Position numbers and translations under genes: made by a program
Shown: piece by piece, positions 1,724 through 18,358 of the stretch
Numbering within the stretch: the first letter of the stretch is position 1
How the letters are laid out: each line of letters starts with the position of its first letter
Origin: an uncultured Eubacteriaceae bacterium
Lineage (GTDB): Bacteria; Bacillota; Clostridia; Eubacteriales; Eubacteriaceae
Assembly (NCBI GenBank): GCA_947625175.1
Contig: CANQNI010000005.1
Coordinates: forward strand, 1-19,579
Direction: 5' to 3'
DNA length: 19,579 bases
The notes under the pieces: generated by a model
What the model was told of the DNA's origin: nothing
The model's database searches: none
Seen by the model: the letters and a program-made list of their open reading frames with translations, nothing else

Positions 1724-2122
1724 TTATGGATTCATATTAGTCATATCTCCCATATAAAATATTGAATAACTAATTCTAACTGTTACGTTGTTTGGATCAC
1801 GTAAAATCATTCTTATTCCACCCGATGTGCCACCACCACTCAAAAGACCTTTTTTATCAATTCTTATCGATACAACTAATTGATTCCCAACACTATTACC
1901 TTCCTCGACAGTAGAAACAAATACAACAAAATCACTTGGTTTACAAGTTTTCAAATTAAATAAATTTTGTACTTCATCCATTGTAAATAACCATGCTGCC
2001 CCGTCAGAAAAATTAACATTCTTAACCCCATATCTTATTCTTCTAACAAATTCTTCATATCTAGGAATGTATGGCTTTAATATATTTCCATCTTTATCCT
2101 TTAAGACATTTAAAACTGCCAT
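1724..2122 (-). CDS. Tail-fibre/receptor-binding-like protein, paralogue 3 of 3
   Basis: A 132-residue protein starting MAVLNVLKDKDGNILKPYIPRY. Its first ~24 residues match those of the two genes transcribed just before it (VLKDKxGNIxxPxIPRY), while the rest is different. A shared N-terminal anchor with divergent, beta-rich C-terminal parts suggests interchangeable tail-tip or baseplate adhesins. It lacks the WIDxxPIYRK motif of the other two and instead has a Ser/Gly-rich turn (LSGGGTSGG) near the centre. No good Shine-Dalgarno is visible close to the ATG; a weak AGAAGAG lies more than 20 bases away, so coupling to the preceding gene is possible. Structural role is inferred from position between baseplate and lysis genes. 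Confidence 0.7.
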   Translation of the reverse strand: MAVLNVLKDKDGNILKPYIPRYEEFVRRIRYGVKNVNFSDGAAWLFTMDEVQNLFNLKTCKPSDFVVFVSTVEEGNSVGNQLVVSIRIDKKGLLSGGGTSGGIRMILRDPNNVTVRISYSIFYMGDMTNMNP

Positions 2123-2148
2123 AAAATCGGCTCATAATTTTCTCTTCT

Positions 2149-2586
2149 TTATTCAATTGGATCATCAGTAGTAACTGTATATTCCATTGTTATTGTTAAA
2201 TCTCTTCTAGTAGAACTCGAATTAAAATAATCACCTATGTTTATTACGATAGTACCTTTTGCTTTATCACTCATACCAAGCCTACTATAAAGAGTACCAC
2301 CAAGATTTTGTGTTAATGGTAGCCAAGAATTACTTTGACGTGAAGTCATTCCACCTCTCAAGTCTAAATAACCTACATTTGTAACACCGCTTTCTATATA
2401 GTAATCGGAAGGTTTAAATTTATCAGTATTTTCAATGTAAATCATTTTTCTATAAATAGGTCTATTGTCTATCCATTTTCCGATGACAACAGGCTCAGTT
2501 GAATAAACTCTTAATGCTTCATAACGTGGAATAAATGGATCTAAAATATTTCCTAATTTATCTTTTAATACTTTTATTATTGCCAT
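2149..2586 (-). CDS. Tail-fibre/receptor-binding-like protein, paralogue 2 of 3
   Basis: A 145-residue protein beginning MAIIKVLKDKLGNILDPFIPRY, then YSTEPVVIGKWIDNRPIYRK at about residues 28-47. The WIDxxPIYRK element is common in C-terminal modules of Bacillota phage tail proteins, where it precedes a beta-rich domain. The C-terminal half (GYLDLRGGMTSRQ... to TITMEYTVTTDD) looks like a small beta-sandwich. It shares the N-terminal anchor and this motif with the gene at 2621-3028 but differs further on. No Shine-Dalgarno is seen in the short gap before the ATG. It probably attaches to the baseplate and contacts the host surface; this is inference from family features and gene order. Confidence 0.75.
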   Translation of the reverse strand: MAIIKVLKDKLGNILDPFIPRYEALRVYSTEPVVIGKWIDNRPIYRKMIYIENTDKFKPSDYYIESGVTNVGYLDLRGGMTSRQSNSWLPLTQNLGGTLYSRLGMSDKAKGTIVINIGDYFNSSSTRRDLTITMEYTVTTDDPIE

Positions 2587-2620
2587 AACATTACGTTATC
2601 GACTATATGCTTACGTTGAT

Positions 2621-3028
2621 TTACTGTTTGGTATATTCAATAATAAAAACTAAACGATTTATTTTACTAATTTCAGAGCCACATTGAAATGATATATTTC
2701 CACTAGAAGCTGAAAGATAAAAACCTCCGACCCAATCAGTATAACTTCCTACTGGATGTGCTACATTTGGAATTGGTCTCCATGCTCCTGATGAATCATG
2801 AGTATTTCTTACAAAACATTTCATCTCTATTACTGAATCTATATTTGAAATTCCAGTATGGATAGTAGCAGTACTTGTTTGCTGAAAACATTTTCTATAA
2901 ATAGGCTTATCATCTATCCACGTTTTGCCAGTTTTTATCTCATCAGTAGAATACTTACTTAAATTATCGTATCTTGGAATATGTGGATCTATTATATTTC
3001 CTAACTTATCTTTAAGCACCTCAAACAT
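2621..3028 (-). CDS. Tail-fibre/receptor-binding-like protein, paralogue 1 of 3
   Basis: A 135-residue protein, first of three tandem paralogues. It starts MFEVLKDKLGNIIDPHIPRY and then has a GKTWIDDKPIYRK motif (about residues 35-47) shared with the next gene. The C-terminal part is beta-rich and ends in a strand pattern (LVFIIEYTKQ) very like the end of paralogue 2 (TITMEYTV). I chose ATG 3028 because AAAGGAG lies about 7 bases upstream. An in-frame ATG at 3034 nearly touches that site and would add two residues not seen in the paralogues. It is likely a tail-tip adhesin or accessory fibre. A 9-G tract and a tiny ORF lie just upstream. Confidence 0.75.
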   Translation of the reverse strand: MFEVLKDKLGNIIDPHIPRYDNLSKYSTDEIKTGKTWIDDKPIYRKCFQQTSTATIHTGISNIDSVIEMKCFVRNTHDSSGAWRPIPNVAHPVGSYTDWVGGFYLSASSGNISFQCGSEISKINRLVFIIEYTKQ

Positions 3029-3069
3029 AAGCATACTCCTTTGTTAAAAAAAGAAGAGAAAAAACTATA

Positions 3070-10534: not shown

Positions 10535-10841
10535 TTACACCAATTCTTTTAGAGCAAACTAAAACAATATCAAATTTGTTTTTAGGATCTACTGTCCTAA
10601 TAACTTGATATCGTTCATTATTCCACTCAAGTTGATCTTCGTTATGATAATTTAGTTTTTTAATAATAAACTCGCATGTTGGAGAAAATCCTGCCTCTAC
10701 AGCATTATAAAACTCATTTAATCTAACACTTTGTTTTTTAGCATAGCACTTGTTTTTAGTTTCAGAAGATGAAATAATATTACCTATTCCATCTTCTGTC
10801 TCAACTAAACTTATTAAATATATAATTTCACTATATTCCAT
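10521..10841 (-). CDS. Head-tail joining (head closure) protein
   Basis: A 106-residue protein with the pattern of the Phage_H_T_join/SPP1 gp16-like stopper family: a beta-rich small barrel, with YLISLVETEDGIGNIISSSETKNKCYAKKQSV at the start, SVRLNEFYNAVEAGFSPTCEFIIKK in the middle and WNNERYQVIRTVDPKNKFDIVLVCSK at the end. The 'V..TEFY.A...G..P...F' core is characteristic. It would close the connector below the adaptor to keep DNA inside the head until the tail attaches. It overlaps the adaptor gene by 11 bases and the gp10-like gene by 14. Confidence 0.85.
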   Translation of the reverse strand: MEYSEIIYLISLVETEDGIGNIISSSETKNKCYAKKQSVRLNEFYNAVEAGFSPTCEFIIKKLNYHNEDQLEWNNERYQVIRTVDPKNKFDIVLVCSKRIGVNGKK

Positions 10842-11112
10842 TGCCAGTGTCCTTCATATATTCTTTTGTATGCCTTAACGCATCTTTTTGAAGTGCATAA
10901 CTATTAGCATATAACTCTGCGTTCGAAACGTCTATTAAACTTAATACATAAGTAATTATTGCAGTATTTATTAAACTATCTTGTTTATCGATTTTAGCAT
11001 CGTCAATTCCGATACTTTTAAGGTCTAATTTTGCTGATTCGATCCAGGTATCAATCATTGAATCAAATTCATTATGATTAATACCTTGAATTTTTTTTAT
11101 TTCATCTAGCAT
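10831..11112 (-). CDS. Head-tail connector (gp6-like adaptor)
   Basis: A 93-residue mostly helical protein in the position of the HK97 gp6/SPP1 gp15 adaptor, the ring that docks under the portal after packaging. Helices can be traced as MLDEIKKIQGIN, EFDSMIDTWIESAKLDLKSIGI, SLINTAIITYVLSLIDVS and LYANSYALQKDALRHTKEYM. The spacing of the helices and the short length agree with this family. An AGAGGT site lies 7 bases before the ATG. It follows the capsid extension frame by 18 bases. Assignment is by pattern and gene order. Confidence 0.8.
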   Translation of the reverse strand: MLDEIKKIQGINHNEFDSMIDTWIESAKLDLKSIGIDDAKIDKQDSLINTAIITYVLSLIDVSNAELYANSYALQKDALRHTKEYMKDTGNGI

Positions 11113-11130: not shown

Positions 11131-11512
11131 TCATTCACTAGGACTTAATGTTAGTCCTGTTAAATCTAATACTTTTTTAGCTTCGCCATTAGTTATTGTA
11201 ATGGTTTGCGTTTTATCGTGTATCTTACTTACAAGGAAATAATCCTTAGAATTCAAAGTACCTTTTCCTTTCTTTTCTGGATCTGATAATTCCCAAGTCA
11301 CAGTATCACCATTCTTAGCCTCTTCAACTTCGATAGCTAAAAAATTTCCTTCTGCACCTTTTTCAAATTTATCAAAATTCTTAACATATTTTAAAGTTCC
11401 TGTTACTTTATCACCTTCTATTTGAACATTGTCATGTAAATCTGATACATCCATGCCATAAACTTGCCCCTCAGATAATTTAATTGTTACTGACTTTTGG
11501 GGCTCGCTAGGG
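11131..11512 (-). CDS. Ig-like C-terminal extension of the capsid protein, reached by +1 frameshift
   Basis: An open frame in the +1 phase relative to the capsid gene, about 125 residues beyond the shift (PSEPQKSVTIKLSEGQVYGM onward). It has the beta-rich pattern of a small decoration domain: KVTGTLKYVKNFDKF, NFLAIEVEEAKNGDTVTWEL, then TLNSKDYFLVSKI, TQTITITNG and KKVLDLTGLTLSPSE at the end. Similar sequences occur as separate small capsid-adjacent proteins or as Ig-like domains in Bacillota phages. No ATG, GTG or TTG with a ribosome site starts this frame; the only in-frame start-like codon is a TTG inside the capsid gene at 11532. The domain therefore most likely appears as a minor 505-residue capsid form that decorates the head surface. 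Independent translation from TTG is the alternative. Confidence 0.75.
11466..11512 (-). promoter_or_regulatory. +1 programmed frameshift site at the end of the capsid gene
   Basis: The capsid gene ends ATA CCC TAG. A slip of the Pro codon from CCC (11512-11510) to CCT lets reading continue as AGC GAG CCC. Six bases after CCC begins a GC-rich stem: GCCCC (11503-11499) pairs with GGGGC (11470-11466), and TCAG (11493-11490) with CTGA (11474-11471), with a 5-base bulge. This spacing is typical of frameshift-stimulating structures. Listeria phage PSA uses CCC-UGA +1 shifts in its structural genes, so a precedent exists. Confidence 0.75.
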
Positions 11513-12649
11513 TATAGATTTAGGTTTAGCAACTAAAGTAAATGCTTTATCTGCCACAACACCAAGACCTACATATTGACGCCCAAGGATTTCAACTAAA
11601 TCCTCTTTCTTACGTGAAAGTTCATCAACTTTAATAGTAAGTTCTTCTCCATTAGGGAAATTTGCTATTGATCCTTGACTATAATCCCCTACAATCATAT
11701 AGACAGCTTGTTCATCTGCTGCATCATATGCAGGTAATTGATTATTGAATTTTACATCAAATCCTTCAAATACATCTACACCATAATTGTTAGCATATTG
11801 TACTTGTTTAAACTTAGCATAAGTAAGTTTATTCATAGTAACTACAGGATTTGTTGCTTCATCACTTAAATGAGCAAACGCAGTTGCTATAGTTGCTGCT
11901 TCTGGTGCTAATTCTATCTTTGCAGCACTTGGACTTTCTTTTGTTGCAGATTGTGGTAATTTTACAATCATATTAATTAATTCGTCAGTTGCTTTCTTTA
12001 TTATTCTATAAGTTAACTCAGCATAAATATATCTTAAGAAATATTCACCAGTTAAATCCATAACTTCATCAGATATTGAAATCCATTTCTTAATAGACTG
12101 TGGACTTATTTCAGCAATACCTTCTGTTAGTTTTTCTTCATCAACTGCTGCAGTACCTTCTTCATGTATTACTGCATCATCACCGCTGATTTCAAACTGA
12201 ACCTTTAAATTTCCTTTAATATTAACCTTTCGTACAAGAGACATTATATCAGATTTTTCCCAAGCAGTTTTTACTTCTTGTAACACAAAATCTGGTACTG
12301 CAATAGTTCCTGATTCAGCAACATTTTCTGTTAATAATGCTCTAATTTCTTCATCATTACCAGTTTTTACATACTCAGCATATGCATTTACATATTCTTT
12401 TGAATTTCTAAATTCTTTAATATCCATTCTTTTATCCTCTTCTTTCTCAATTTTTTTTGCTTCAACACTTTTGATTTCAAGTTCTTTAGCAGTTTTATCA
12501 AGTGTTTCTTGCTTACTAATTAAATTTTTTTCTTCTTTTAAAGCATCAACTTCTTTATCAAGTTCTTTTACTTGCTCTTCTGTTTCTGCTTTTTCTACTT
12601 CTTCACGTATTTCTTTCATACGAGATTCTATTTCTTCTTTTCTTGTCAT
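11507..12649 (-). CDS. Major capsid protein, HK97 fold, with N-terminal delta domain
   Basis: A 380-residue HK97-type capsid precursor. Residues about 1-75 are a highly charged coiled coil (EEIESRMKEIREEVEKAETE and on), the internal scaffold-like delta domain normally removed by the prohead protease encoded upstream. The HK97 core follows: the N-arm (KEFRNSKEYVNAYAEYVK near 78-95), TENVAESGTIAVPDFVLQEV near 107-126, the E-loop/spine region (EGTAAVDEEKLTEGIAEISPQSIKKWISISDEVMD), PVVTMNKLTYAKFKQ, FEGFDVKFNNQLP and VYMIVGDYSQG near the A-domain. A GGGAGGT site precedes the ATG. The gene has its own leader after a terminator, suggesting separate high expression. The stop is part of a probable +1 frameshift signal that adds an Ig-like domain to some copies. 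Confidence 0.95.
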   Translation of the reverse strand: MTRKEEIESRMKEIREEVEKAETEEQVKELDKEVDALKEEKNLISKQETLDKTAKELEIKSVEAKKIEKEEDKRMDIKEFRNSKEYVNAYAEYVKTGNDEEIRALLTENVAESGTIAVPDFVLQEVKTAWEKSDIMSLVRKVNIKGNLKVQFEISGDDAVIHEEGTAAVDEEKLTEGIAEISPQSIKKWISISDEVMDLTGEYFLRYIYAELTYRIIKKATDELINMIVKLPQSATKESPSAAKIELAPEAATIATAFAHLSDEATNPVVTMNKLTYAKFKQVQYANNYGVDVFEGFDVKFNNQLPAYDAADEQAVYMIVGDYSQGSIANFPNGEELTIKVDELSRKKEDLVEILGRQYVGLGVVADKAFTLVAKPKSIP

Positions 12650-17808: not shown

Positions 17809-18358
17809 CTAACCAAAAAATTTATCTATATCTGCTTGAGTAGCATTCCTTACTCCATTGTTTGAAACACCATCATCAAGATTAGATAATAATATATTTA
17901 ATAAACTTGTAAATGACATATCTTTCATTTCTTCTATAGATATTCCTAATCTTTTAGCGAAAGCTATTATTTCGTATTCATCTATTGGTTCTATTTCCTC
18001 ATTATTATCTGGGAACTGCTTTAAGTCCCCCTGATAAGGGTGACATTGCTAGTGTTATAACTTCACTAACCCAGTTATCATCTGCAAATAAATTGTCATT
18101 ATTCTTTAAAAATTCCTCAAATGAATTTATTTGCGTTTTATCTGCTTCTTCAATCATAGTGTAAGCAACTCTTAATACAATTTCCAAAAAATCATCTATT
18201 TTATTCAAAGTATCTTTTGTATCATCAACATTAAATTCTGTTAATTTATTTAAATCTTGCATTAATTTTCTTCCGGTATCATTTTTGTATTTAAATTGAG
18301 TATATGCACTAGCTTGCATATTATAATCTTTTTCTCCTATTTTTATAGTTTTTCTCAT
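17809..18358 (-). CDS. Tail assembly chaperone, frameshifted long form (gpGT-like)
   Basis: The short chaperone frame ends GCA GTT CCC AGA TAA. In the +1 phase, reading continues as GAT AAT AAT and stays open to TAG at 17809, adding 66 residues: DNNEEIEPIDEYEIIAFAKR, LGISIEEMKDMSFTSLLNIL and a 26-residue tail. 'LGIS.EEM..MSF..LLNIL' is a pattern of the T-domain part of tail chaperone fusions, which binds the tape measure. The added part has no start codon with a ribosome site of its own. A total length of about 182 residues is expected. Slippage could occur at CCC-A (18013-18010) or at the GGGGG run (18031-18027), where a +1 slip re-pairs fully. That a shift occurs is inferred from the conserved-looking extension. 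Confidence 0.75.
18005..18358 (-). CDS. Tail assembly chaperone, short form (gpG-like)
   Basis: A 117-residue protein of the siphovirus tail assembly chaperone type: MRKTIKIGEKDYNMQASAYT followed by QFKYKNDTGRKLMQDLNKL, then a helical core (LEIVLRVAYTMIEEADKTQI, NSFEEFLKN, WVSEVITLAMSPLSGG). The chaperone coats the tape measure while the tail tube assembles and is absent from virions. AGGAGG stands 7-8 bases before the ATG. The position is odd: the chaperone normally lies between the major tail protein and tape measure, but here it is the first gene after the late regulator, upstream of the terminase, and that usual slot is empty. A perfect stop two codons after CCC is followed by a +1 open frame. 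Confidence 0.8.
   Translation of the reverse strand: MRKTIKIGEKDYNMQASAYTQFKYKNDTGRKLMQDLNKLTEFNVDDTKDTLNKIDDFLEIVLRVAYTMIEEADKTQINSFEEFLKNNDNLFADDNWVSEVITLAMSPLSGGLKAVPR

Follow-up and report, generated by a model that had tools for sequence, protein, structure and literature searches.

Why does a phage capsid gene that closes with CCC TAG run on, in the +1 frame, into a long open frame for a further domain, and where does such an arrangement come from? The question is raised by the window, a stretch of 19,579 nucleotides corresponding to a 19.6-kb contig of a draft genome (1.6 Mb, 238 contigs, 84% complete), which carries on its minus strand the phage structural genes for terminase large subunit, portal, protease, capsid, connector and major tail protein (Table 1). 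Judged from the sequence, a programmed +1 frameshift at the capsid end is very likely. We also consider it highly probable that this shift, a minority 505-residue capsid form, its Ig/FN3-like domain and the horizontal spread of the underlying cassette among phages of gut Firmicutes hold jointly.

Table 1. Features at the capsid end of the window.
Feature	Position	Strand	Evidence
Head-tail connector, next gene directly behind the cassette	10831..11112	-	PF24829 5.7e-07, phrog_5223 6.7e-14
Transferable cassette: shift site, hairpin, domain and stop, ~380 bp	11131..11515	-	Shared-DNA boundaries, different upstream genes
Extension in the +1 frame (125 codons, then a stop), predicted to fold as an Ig/FN3-like beta sandwich	11131..11508	-	AlphaFold2 pLDDT 93.6, fold searches, 29 homologues
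3' hairpin, outer stem GCCCC/GGGGC six bases after CCC	11466..11503	-	Folding, synonymous-codon tests
Shift site ATA CCC TAG	11507..11515	-	Sequence; CCC-stop with +1 extension in 33/39 rows
Major capsid gene, HK97 type, 380 aa, 0-frame end ...KPKSIP	11507..12649	-	PF05065 4.1e-14, phrog_10 3.1e-29

As the preliminary description of this DNA had stated, the capsid gene ends in ATA CCC TAG (AAA TCT ATA CCC TAG, with CCC at 11512-11510 and TAG at 11509-11507), and the 125-residue extension that it had placed in the +1 frame directly behind the stop was found there as well. The extension (SEPQKSVTIKL...) occupies codons 11508 to 11134 and is followed by the stop TGA at 11133-11131; the shifted capsid product would measure 505 aa. 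The arrangement is that of a shifty stop, CCC being the last sense codon, overlapping a CCU in the +1 frame and leaving the stop in the A site. CCC is a rare codon, representing 8 of the 147 proline codons in the 25 window genes plus the extension and 90 of 1685 in the ORFs of the related loci L012-L048. According to a tRNA survey in which the loci of 30 of the 33 tRNA matches were scanned, the draft genome contains both tRNA-Pro(GGG) and tRNA-Pro(UGG), and a tRNA pattern search gave no result. CCC thus has a cognate tRNA, which rules out the absence of a CCC-reading tRNA as the cause of the shift, and a slip would rest on the rare codon, the slow stop and the hairpin. Readthrough of TAG in the 0 frame was rejected since the frame behind it closes after 8 codons.

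Among the 120 listed homologues of the capsid protein, the window's own protein is the only one to end in proline, and neither a CCC end nor the domain was detected in the nine capsid relatives from viral contigs. In locus L002, the capsid of which is 72% identical to that of the window, the stop is followed by a next gene that begins alike (compared by eye), with no cassette in between.

The extension is predicted to form an Ig/FN3-like beta sandwich, and it has 29 homologous proteins besides the window's own with an E of 1e-3 or lower, of which 28 show 55-84% identity. The earlier proposal of a beta-rich addition to the capsid protein is supported by comparison. A CAP-Gly match (E 0.0062, under the cut-off) was disregarded. 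Bacterial genome contigs were searched with alignment A1 (15 rows) by way of two conserved peptides; since these peptides lie deep inside the domain, the search could not have selected for the shift site. This extension-only search returned 38 loci, 32 of which carry CCC TAG or CCC TAA with the domain in the +1 frame. Including the window, 33 of 39 rows show this arrangement over a long open frame, with TAG in 22 and TAA in 11 of them. The comparison supports the +1 programmed frameshift at CCC-TAG. Homologues lacking CCC-stop and carrying the domain as a standalone ATG gene had been named as a refutation, and the result was the reverse.

The remaining loci are of several kinds. In L012, L038 and L043 the domain lies in the -1 frame behind an A-run, and in L017 it lies in the +1 frame behind CCC AGC TGA. 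Locus L016 contains a single continuous ORF of 421 aa, an in-frame fusion whose capsid belongs to the same BLASTP cluster as capsids of +1 loci; the fusion (L016, 2940-3060) lies behind a run of ten A, where reading one base fewer would run into a stop within a few codons, and slippage at this run might yield the short form rather than the long one. In L049 only 50 residues matched inside a long ORF, which is not this cassette. As a gauge of chance occurrence, a six-frame survey of L012-L048 showed 31 of 264 distinct ORFs of at least 120 aa to end in CCC-stop; at a minimum length of 100 aa there were 34 such ORFs, all of them reading CCC TAR followed by GCC within 3-5 bases.

With the exception of L049, which is from a horse, the loci (37 of 38, L012-L048) are derived from records named Lapin (French for rabbit), metagenome bins labelled Bacilli or Clostridia, a concentration that may have ecological reasons or stem from what the collection contains. 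The domain profile matched 3 of 391 genomes of the class including the window's own, one of the three (G143) having in-frame copies, and 1 of 40 genomes of the family, 1 of 67 of the order and 1 of 398 in a sample of the phylum, the single match in each case being the window's own. The plasmid collection gave no match, and a scan of the viral contigs with the extension alignment revealed one distant in-frame relative (L011). Two further distant relatives (L082 and L084 on G294:C1) both lie in the -1 frame behind A AAC CCT TAA, a heptamer of the X_XXY_YYZ type; the open run upstream of L084 comprises 501 codons.

Folding confirmed the hairpin pairs and the distance of six bases after CCC given in the preliminary description. 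The outer stem pairs 11503-11499 (GCCCC) with 11470-11466 (GGGGC) and the inner stem 11493-11487 with 11478-11471, the latter comprising the pairs 11493-11490/11474-11471 and, in addition to those described, 11489-11487/11478-11476. By itself the window's hairpin is modestly unusual against shuffled sequences: in 52 nt it reached -12.1 kcal/mol (z -1.92, with 9 of 200 dinucleotide shuffles as good), and in a 77-nt context z -0.69 (54 of 200). It is the comparison between loci that provides the strong evidence. When codons 1-17 of the extension were replaced by synonymous ones, the native sequence folded more strongly (mean z -2.17, with 30 of 34 rows below -1.5), as compared with mean z values of -0.75 to 0.12 for the six following windows of the same genes. 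This result, obtained with L012, L016, L038, L043, L011 and L049 omitted, implies a constraint that exceeds the coding need.

A stem starting 6-7 bases after CCC was present in 32 of 33 rows (L017 omitted as well) and missing at L037, which supports the proposed stimulatory type; the fraction of shuffles as good was at most 0.05 in 28 rows and higher in five. These rows are related, so that the counts are not independent. Two hairpin designs were recognised. One combines GCCC..GGGC with GGTAA/TTACC as the inner stem; the other, GCCAC..GTGGC, occurs in L032, L035, L036, L039-L042, L044, L045 and L047, its 5' arm lying at the same position but pairing with a different partner. Strict covariation is thin (one pair changed on both sides, 4 cells), partly because the stems slide by a base. 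The -1 locus L012 is without this stem.

The +1 chemistry at CCC-stop is known from other phages. In SPP1 a +1 shift at CCC.UAA yields gp17.1* besides gp17.1 by adding an FN3-type domain, with a short to long ratio of 3:1 in the tails (PMC6316719; PMC8718954). Going by the text of these papers, the likeness comprises a +1 CCC-stop that closes the gene of an abundant virion protein and an FN3-type extension, the domains being compared by published description, but SPP1 extends the tail tube and the window the capsid. For the Lactococcus 936-group phage PhiC0139 the MTP-TpeX fusion has been seen by Western blot and is ascribed to a +1 "shifty stop" at CCC.UAG, as in the window (PMC4759559); according to that account it differs in concerning a tail protein and in its other extension, a reported carbohydrate-binding domain.

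The preliminary description had cited Listeria phage PSA for +1 shifts at CCC-UGA in capsid and tail genes. This is correct for tsh (CCC_UGA), whereas cps shifts at ACA_CCC_UCC, before the stop, in the account given by the review (PMC5009743). In the PSA record (AJ312240), ACA CCC TGA AAC at tsh precedes a 6-bp stem that has an inner stem, and ACA CCC TCC GAA at cps precedes a GC stem; before the CCC of tsh the review text prints (AAA), where the record has ACA. PSA is similar in using +1 shifts at CCC in capsid and tail genes of one phage, and tsh, with ACA-CCC-stop, 3 nt and a stem, shows the same layout and spacing as the cassette, so that the different sequence context formerly claimed is not so different. 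The tsh stem alone is not unusual (z -0.72, 43 of 200 shuffles as good). Differences are the tsh extension of only 24 residues past the stop and the lack of sequence similarity of the domain to PSA extensions, since tblastn with the extensions of the window and L021 against 50,697 phage records including PSA gave no match at 0.01.

Ig-like C-terminal extensions produced by -1 shifts have been described for phage T3, Lactobacillus phage A2 and others on diverse virion proteins, and Ig-like domains are thought to move between phages, the presence and direction of a shift resulting, as the review suggests, from chance landing (PMC5009743). As far as that text goes, the likeness lies in Ig-like domains that frameshifting adds to the C-termini of diverse virion proteins, but the named cases are -1, whereas here a +1 signal travels with the domain. 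It is this portability of the signal with the domain that is new.

The 38 upstream ORFs (window and L012-L048) fell into 14 BLASTP clusters with no cross-matches at 1e-5. Twelve of these hold CCC-stop rows, one consists of L017 alone and one of the -1 pair L038/L043. Scanning one or two members of each cluster against PHROGs and Pfam assigned them to capsids (HK97 phrog_10/PF05065, two clusters; phrog_544/PF25209; phrog_422; SU10-type PF17236; phrog_247; phrog_267, two clusters), tail proteins (phrog_3099/820, phrog_88, phrog_158) and other virion proteins (phrog_909, major head or decoration-like; phrog_2729, virion structural protein). The cluster L012/L021/L042 had no convincing PHROGs or Pfam match; the upstream gene of L021 has a scaffold gene on one side and a head-tail adaptor on the other, the expected place of a capsid gene. 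Since two pairs of clusters share a PHROG, the upstream genes are different at the BLASTP level, and the capsids of tailed phages may have a common fold. These identities place the cassette mainly behind abundant head and tail proteins.

Comparisons between loci of different clusters yielded 399 blastn HSPs of at least 250 nt. Of their starts, 264 lie at -11 to -3 relative to the stop codon, 191 of these at -7 to -5; 22 are further upstream, none beyond -30, and 113 are inside the extension. At the other side, 388 of the 399 finish close to where the domain gene does (-31 to +53 nt), four extend well past it and the rest stop short. The clearest case is the pair L029 (SU10-type capsid) and L030 (phrog_267 capsid), which share 97.6% identity over 370 nt in a match that begins at AACTCCC (from -7) and ends just before the domain stop, the identity being 1.00 over -6..+60 versus 0.34 over -126..-7. 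Similarly, the match of L035 (phrog_909) to L039 (phrog_422 capsid) runs from -5 for 379 nt at 92.9% identity, and that of L025 to L026, which also have different upstream genes, begins at -6 with 87.6%. The cluster-weighted information per base is 0.1-0.8 bit between -36 and -7 and 1.0-2.0 between -6 and +2, with the jump at -6 (ACACCC), for 34 rows in 13 clusters (L012, L016, L038 and L043, which have no CCC-stop, as well as L011 and L049 omitted). Based on the occurrence of CCC-stop behind different clusters, the starts of the shared DNA and the hairpin constraint beyond coding, the shift signal appears to be transferred jointly with the domain, in a cassette of about 380 bp.

A tree of the domain DNA (37 rows, the first 54 bases removed; L048, L011 and L049 left out) requires 21 changes of the upstream cluster, compared with a minimum of 12 and a shuffled mean of 27.7 (none of 200 shuffles as low), so that the upstream family is clustered on the tree to some degree; as 11 of the 33 inner branches are well supported, the 21 changes are an estimate. 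The window's domain is nearest to those of L013 and L014, which sit on another capsid family. The shift type changes four times on this tree, a number without power of its own with only four rows not being +1.

Furthermore, whole genomes of 20 of the loci L012-L048 were searched for second sites. In L019 two copies of the cassette occur on a single contig, one following a capsid (phrog_10, E 2e-5, part scanned) and the other a phrog_88 tail protein. In L022 the capsid part (phrog_10, E 1.5e-7) is followed by ACA CCC TAG TGA GCCCGAAGAGGGC and a different extension of 216 residues, which the domain profile missed, and the usual cassette stands behind the tail protein. The 20 genomes also contained seven copies of a diverged domain branch (E 4e-24 to 6e-14), four with CCC TAG or CCC TAA and +1 (L220-L223), one with -1 (L224) and two in frame (L218, L219). 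L022 and the diverged copies indicate that signal and domain can also be recombined.

Alternatively, no mobile cassette might exist, and ACA CCC TAR with a hairpin might have arisen repeatedly by selection at each gene. The presence of ACA_CCC and a hairpin in PSA, where domain similarity is undetectable, makes convergence or a very old ancestry of the motif possible, and the shared blocks that begin inside the extension would fit as well. Since the close pairs described above share their DNA from the motif on despite different upstream genes, we regard repeated origin as unlikely.

A second alternative does without any frameshift: internal initiation or stop-start re-initiation would produce a free Ig-like protein that binds the capsid. 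The preliminary description had denied the extension a start codon or ribosome site of its own, which is not strictly correct. A TTG in the extension frame at 11532 lies 24 nt before extension codon 1, and an ATG at codon 18 lies 12 nt behind GAGGGG. An upstream ATG or TTG in this frame exists in some rows, and in the distant homologue P0150 the domain is encoded by an ORF of its own, start codon included. Neither start is conserved: the ATG is shared by 8 of 34 rows, L027, L029, L030, L031 and L046 have no start upstream or in the first 89 extension codons, and in L034 the whole extension frame is devoid of starts. In addition, the residues T8, P12, G14 and V16, which precede codon 18, are kept in at least 90% of the 33 rows of alignment A4, L016 forms one continuous fusion ORF, and a conserved CCC before the stop would be purposeless for a separate protein. 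Taken together, the unconserved starts, the fusion and the conserved residues argue against a separate protein, which seems quite improbable.

Still less probable is that CCC-stop merely represents the scar of a landing and the extension a decaying or unexpressed frame, although the review reports the view that Ig domains land by chance, whether in frame or not (PMC5009743). CCC-stop recurs behind 12 upstream clusters, the extension protein is conserved (50-78% identity to the window in the A4 rows, 37% in P0150) with its frame kept open, the hairpin is constrained beyond coding, and loci lacking CCC-stop have the domain either in frame or in -1 following an A-run. An indel introduced by sequencing or assembly into what is really a normal in-frame fusion, conceivable for a single contig of such a draft, was refuted by the same frame relation at 32 other loci and can hardly be entertained.

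The programmed shift would operate as follows. A ribosome with tRNA-Pro on the rare CCC and TAG in the A site would pause, presumably aided by the hairpin at the mRNA entrance, and in a fraction of cases the P-site tRNA would slip by +1 and re-pair on CCT, so that translation continues in the +1 frame. The majority product would be the 380-residue capsid protein and the minority the 505-residue form, whose Ig/FN3-like domain is expected to project from the head once incorporated. A use for such a domain is suggested by a 2026 study of a -1 site in phage K1F, in which proteins with Ig-like domains were displayed on a subset of the capsid subunits and epithelial adhesion was reported (PMC13370021); by analogy, the domain might here serve as an adhesin. 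The cassette itself would spread horizontally between phages of gut Firmicutes, settling behind many different major virion proteins.

The cassette probably represents a transmissible frameshift module, in which ACA-CCC-stop, hairpin, Ig-like domain and stop are pasted with sharp ends onto abundant virion genes, the signal being reused with other extensions, so that partial decoration at a preset ratio would be gained in one step. As far as the open-access literature could be consulted, it yielded no description of a transferable +1 site of this kind. As some 21 changes of the upstream gene have left the recoding signal attached to the domain, the origin of programmed frameshifts becomes testable, and the loci provide more than 30 natural constructs of one site with many genes, TAG or TAA, two hairpin designs, and -1 and in-frame versions. 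They also offer an annotation rule (ACA CCC TAR with a hairpin behind a capsid or tail gene) and point to a possible exchange of surface domains among gut phages.

Pattern searches gave a mixed yield. The exact cassette pattern was not found in the viral-contig collection. A pattern search of the class had no hit in 391 genomes, but its pattern could not match the window itself, which reads ATA; another, over 21 records (7 of 21), misses most of the known cassettes. Patterns for ACA CCC-stop with a GC hairpin returned 14 and 84 stretches, of which the 94 matches L097-L190 were examined, with L191-L194 left out. An upstream open run of at least 90 codons was present in 24 of these, and 16 of the 24 had a +1 run of at least 20; most of the 16 look accidental, and L122, L160, L161 and L176 are the PSA tsh sequence itself. 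Two stretches, L146:3000 and L105:5431, have ACA CCC TGA and ACA CCC TAG, respectively, with a GC hairpin behind open runs of 385 and 199 codons, and continue in the +1 frame for 52 codons (with an ATG inside) and 50 codons.

A second candidate +1 site, also at a CCC codon, was noticed in the window at 18358..17820 on the minus strand, where a phrog_709 protein of 117 aa is encoded at 18358..18005 and an overlapping +1 frame continues for about 65 codons. The CCC occurs in the pattern CCC WTW TCN RGG in the window and all 10 viral-contig relatives, some of them near-duplicates, and the +1 frame is open in all 11. The two frames, for which there is no supporting family name, resemble a pair of tail-assembly chaperones; the gene lies ahead of the terminase gene, and the gap between the tail protein (9239) and the tape measure (9166) is too small for it. 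Finally, three adjoining small proteins at 1724-3034 on the minus strand of the window start near-identically (VLKDKxGNIxxPxIPRY) and then diverge, and are perhaps duplicated tail or fibre parts.
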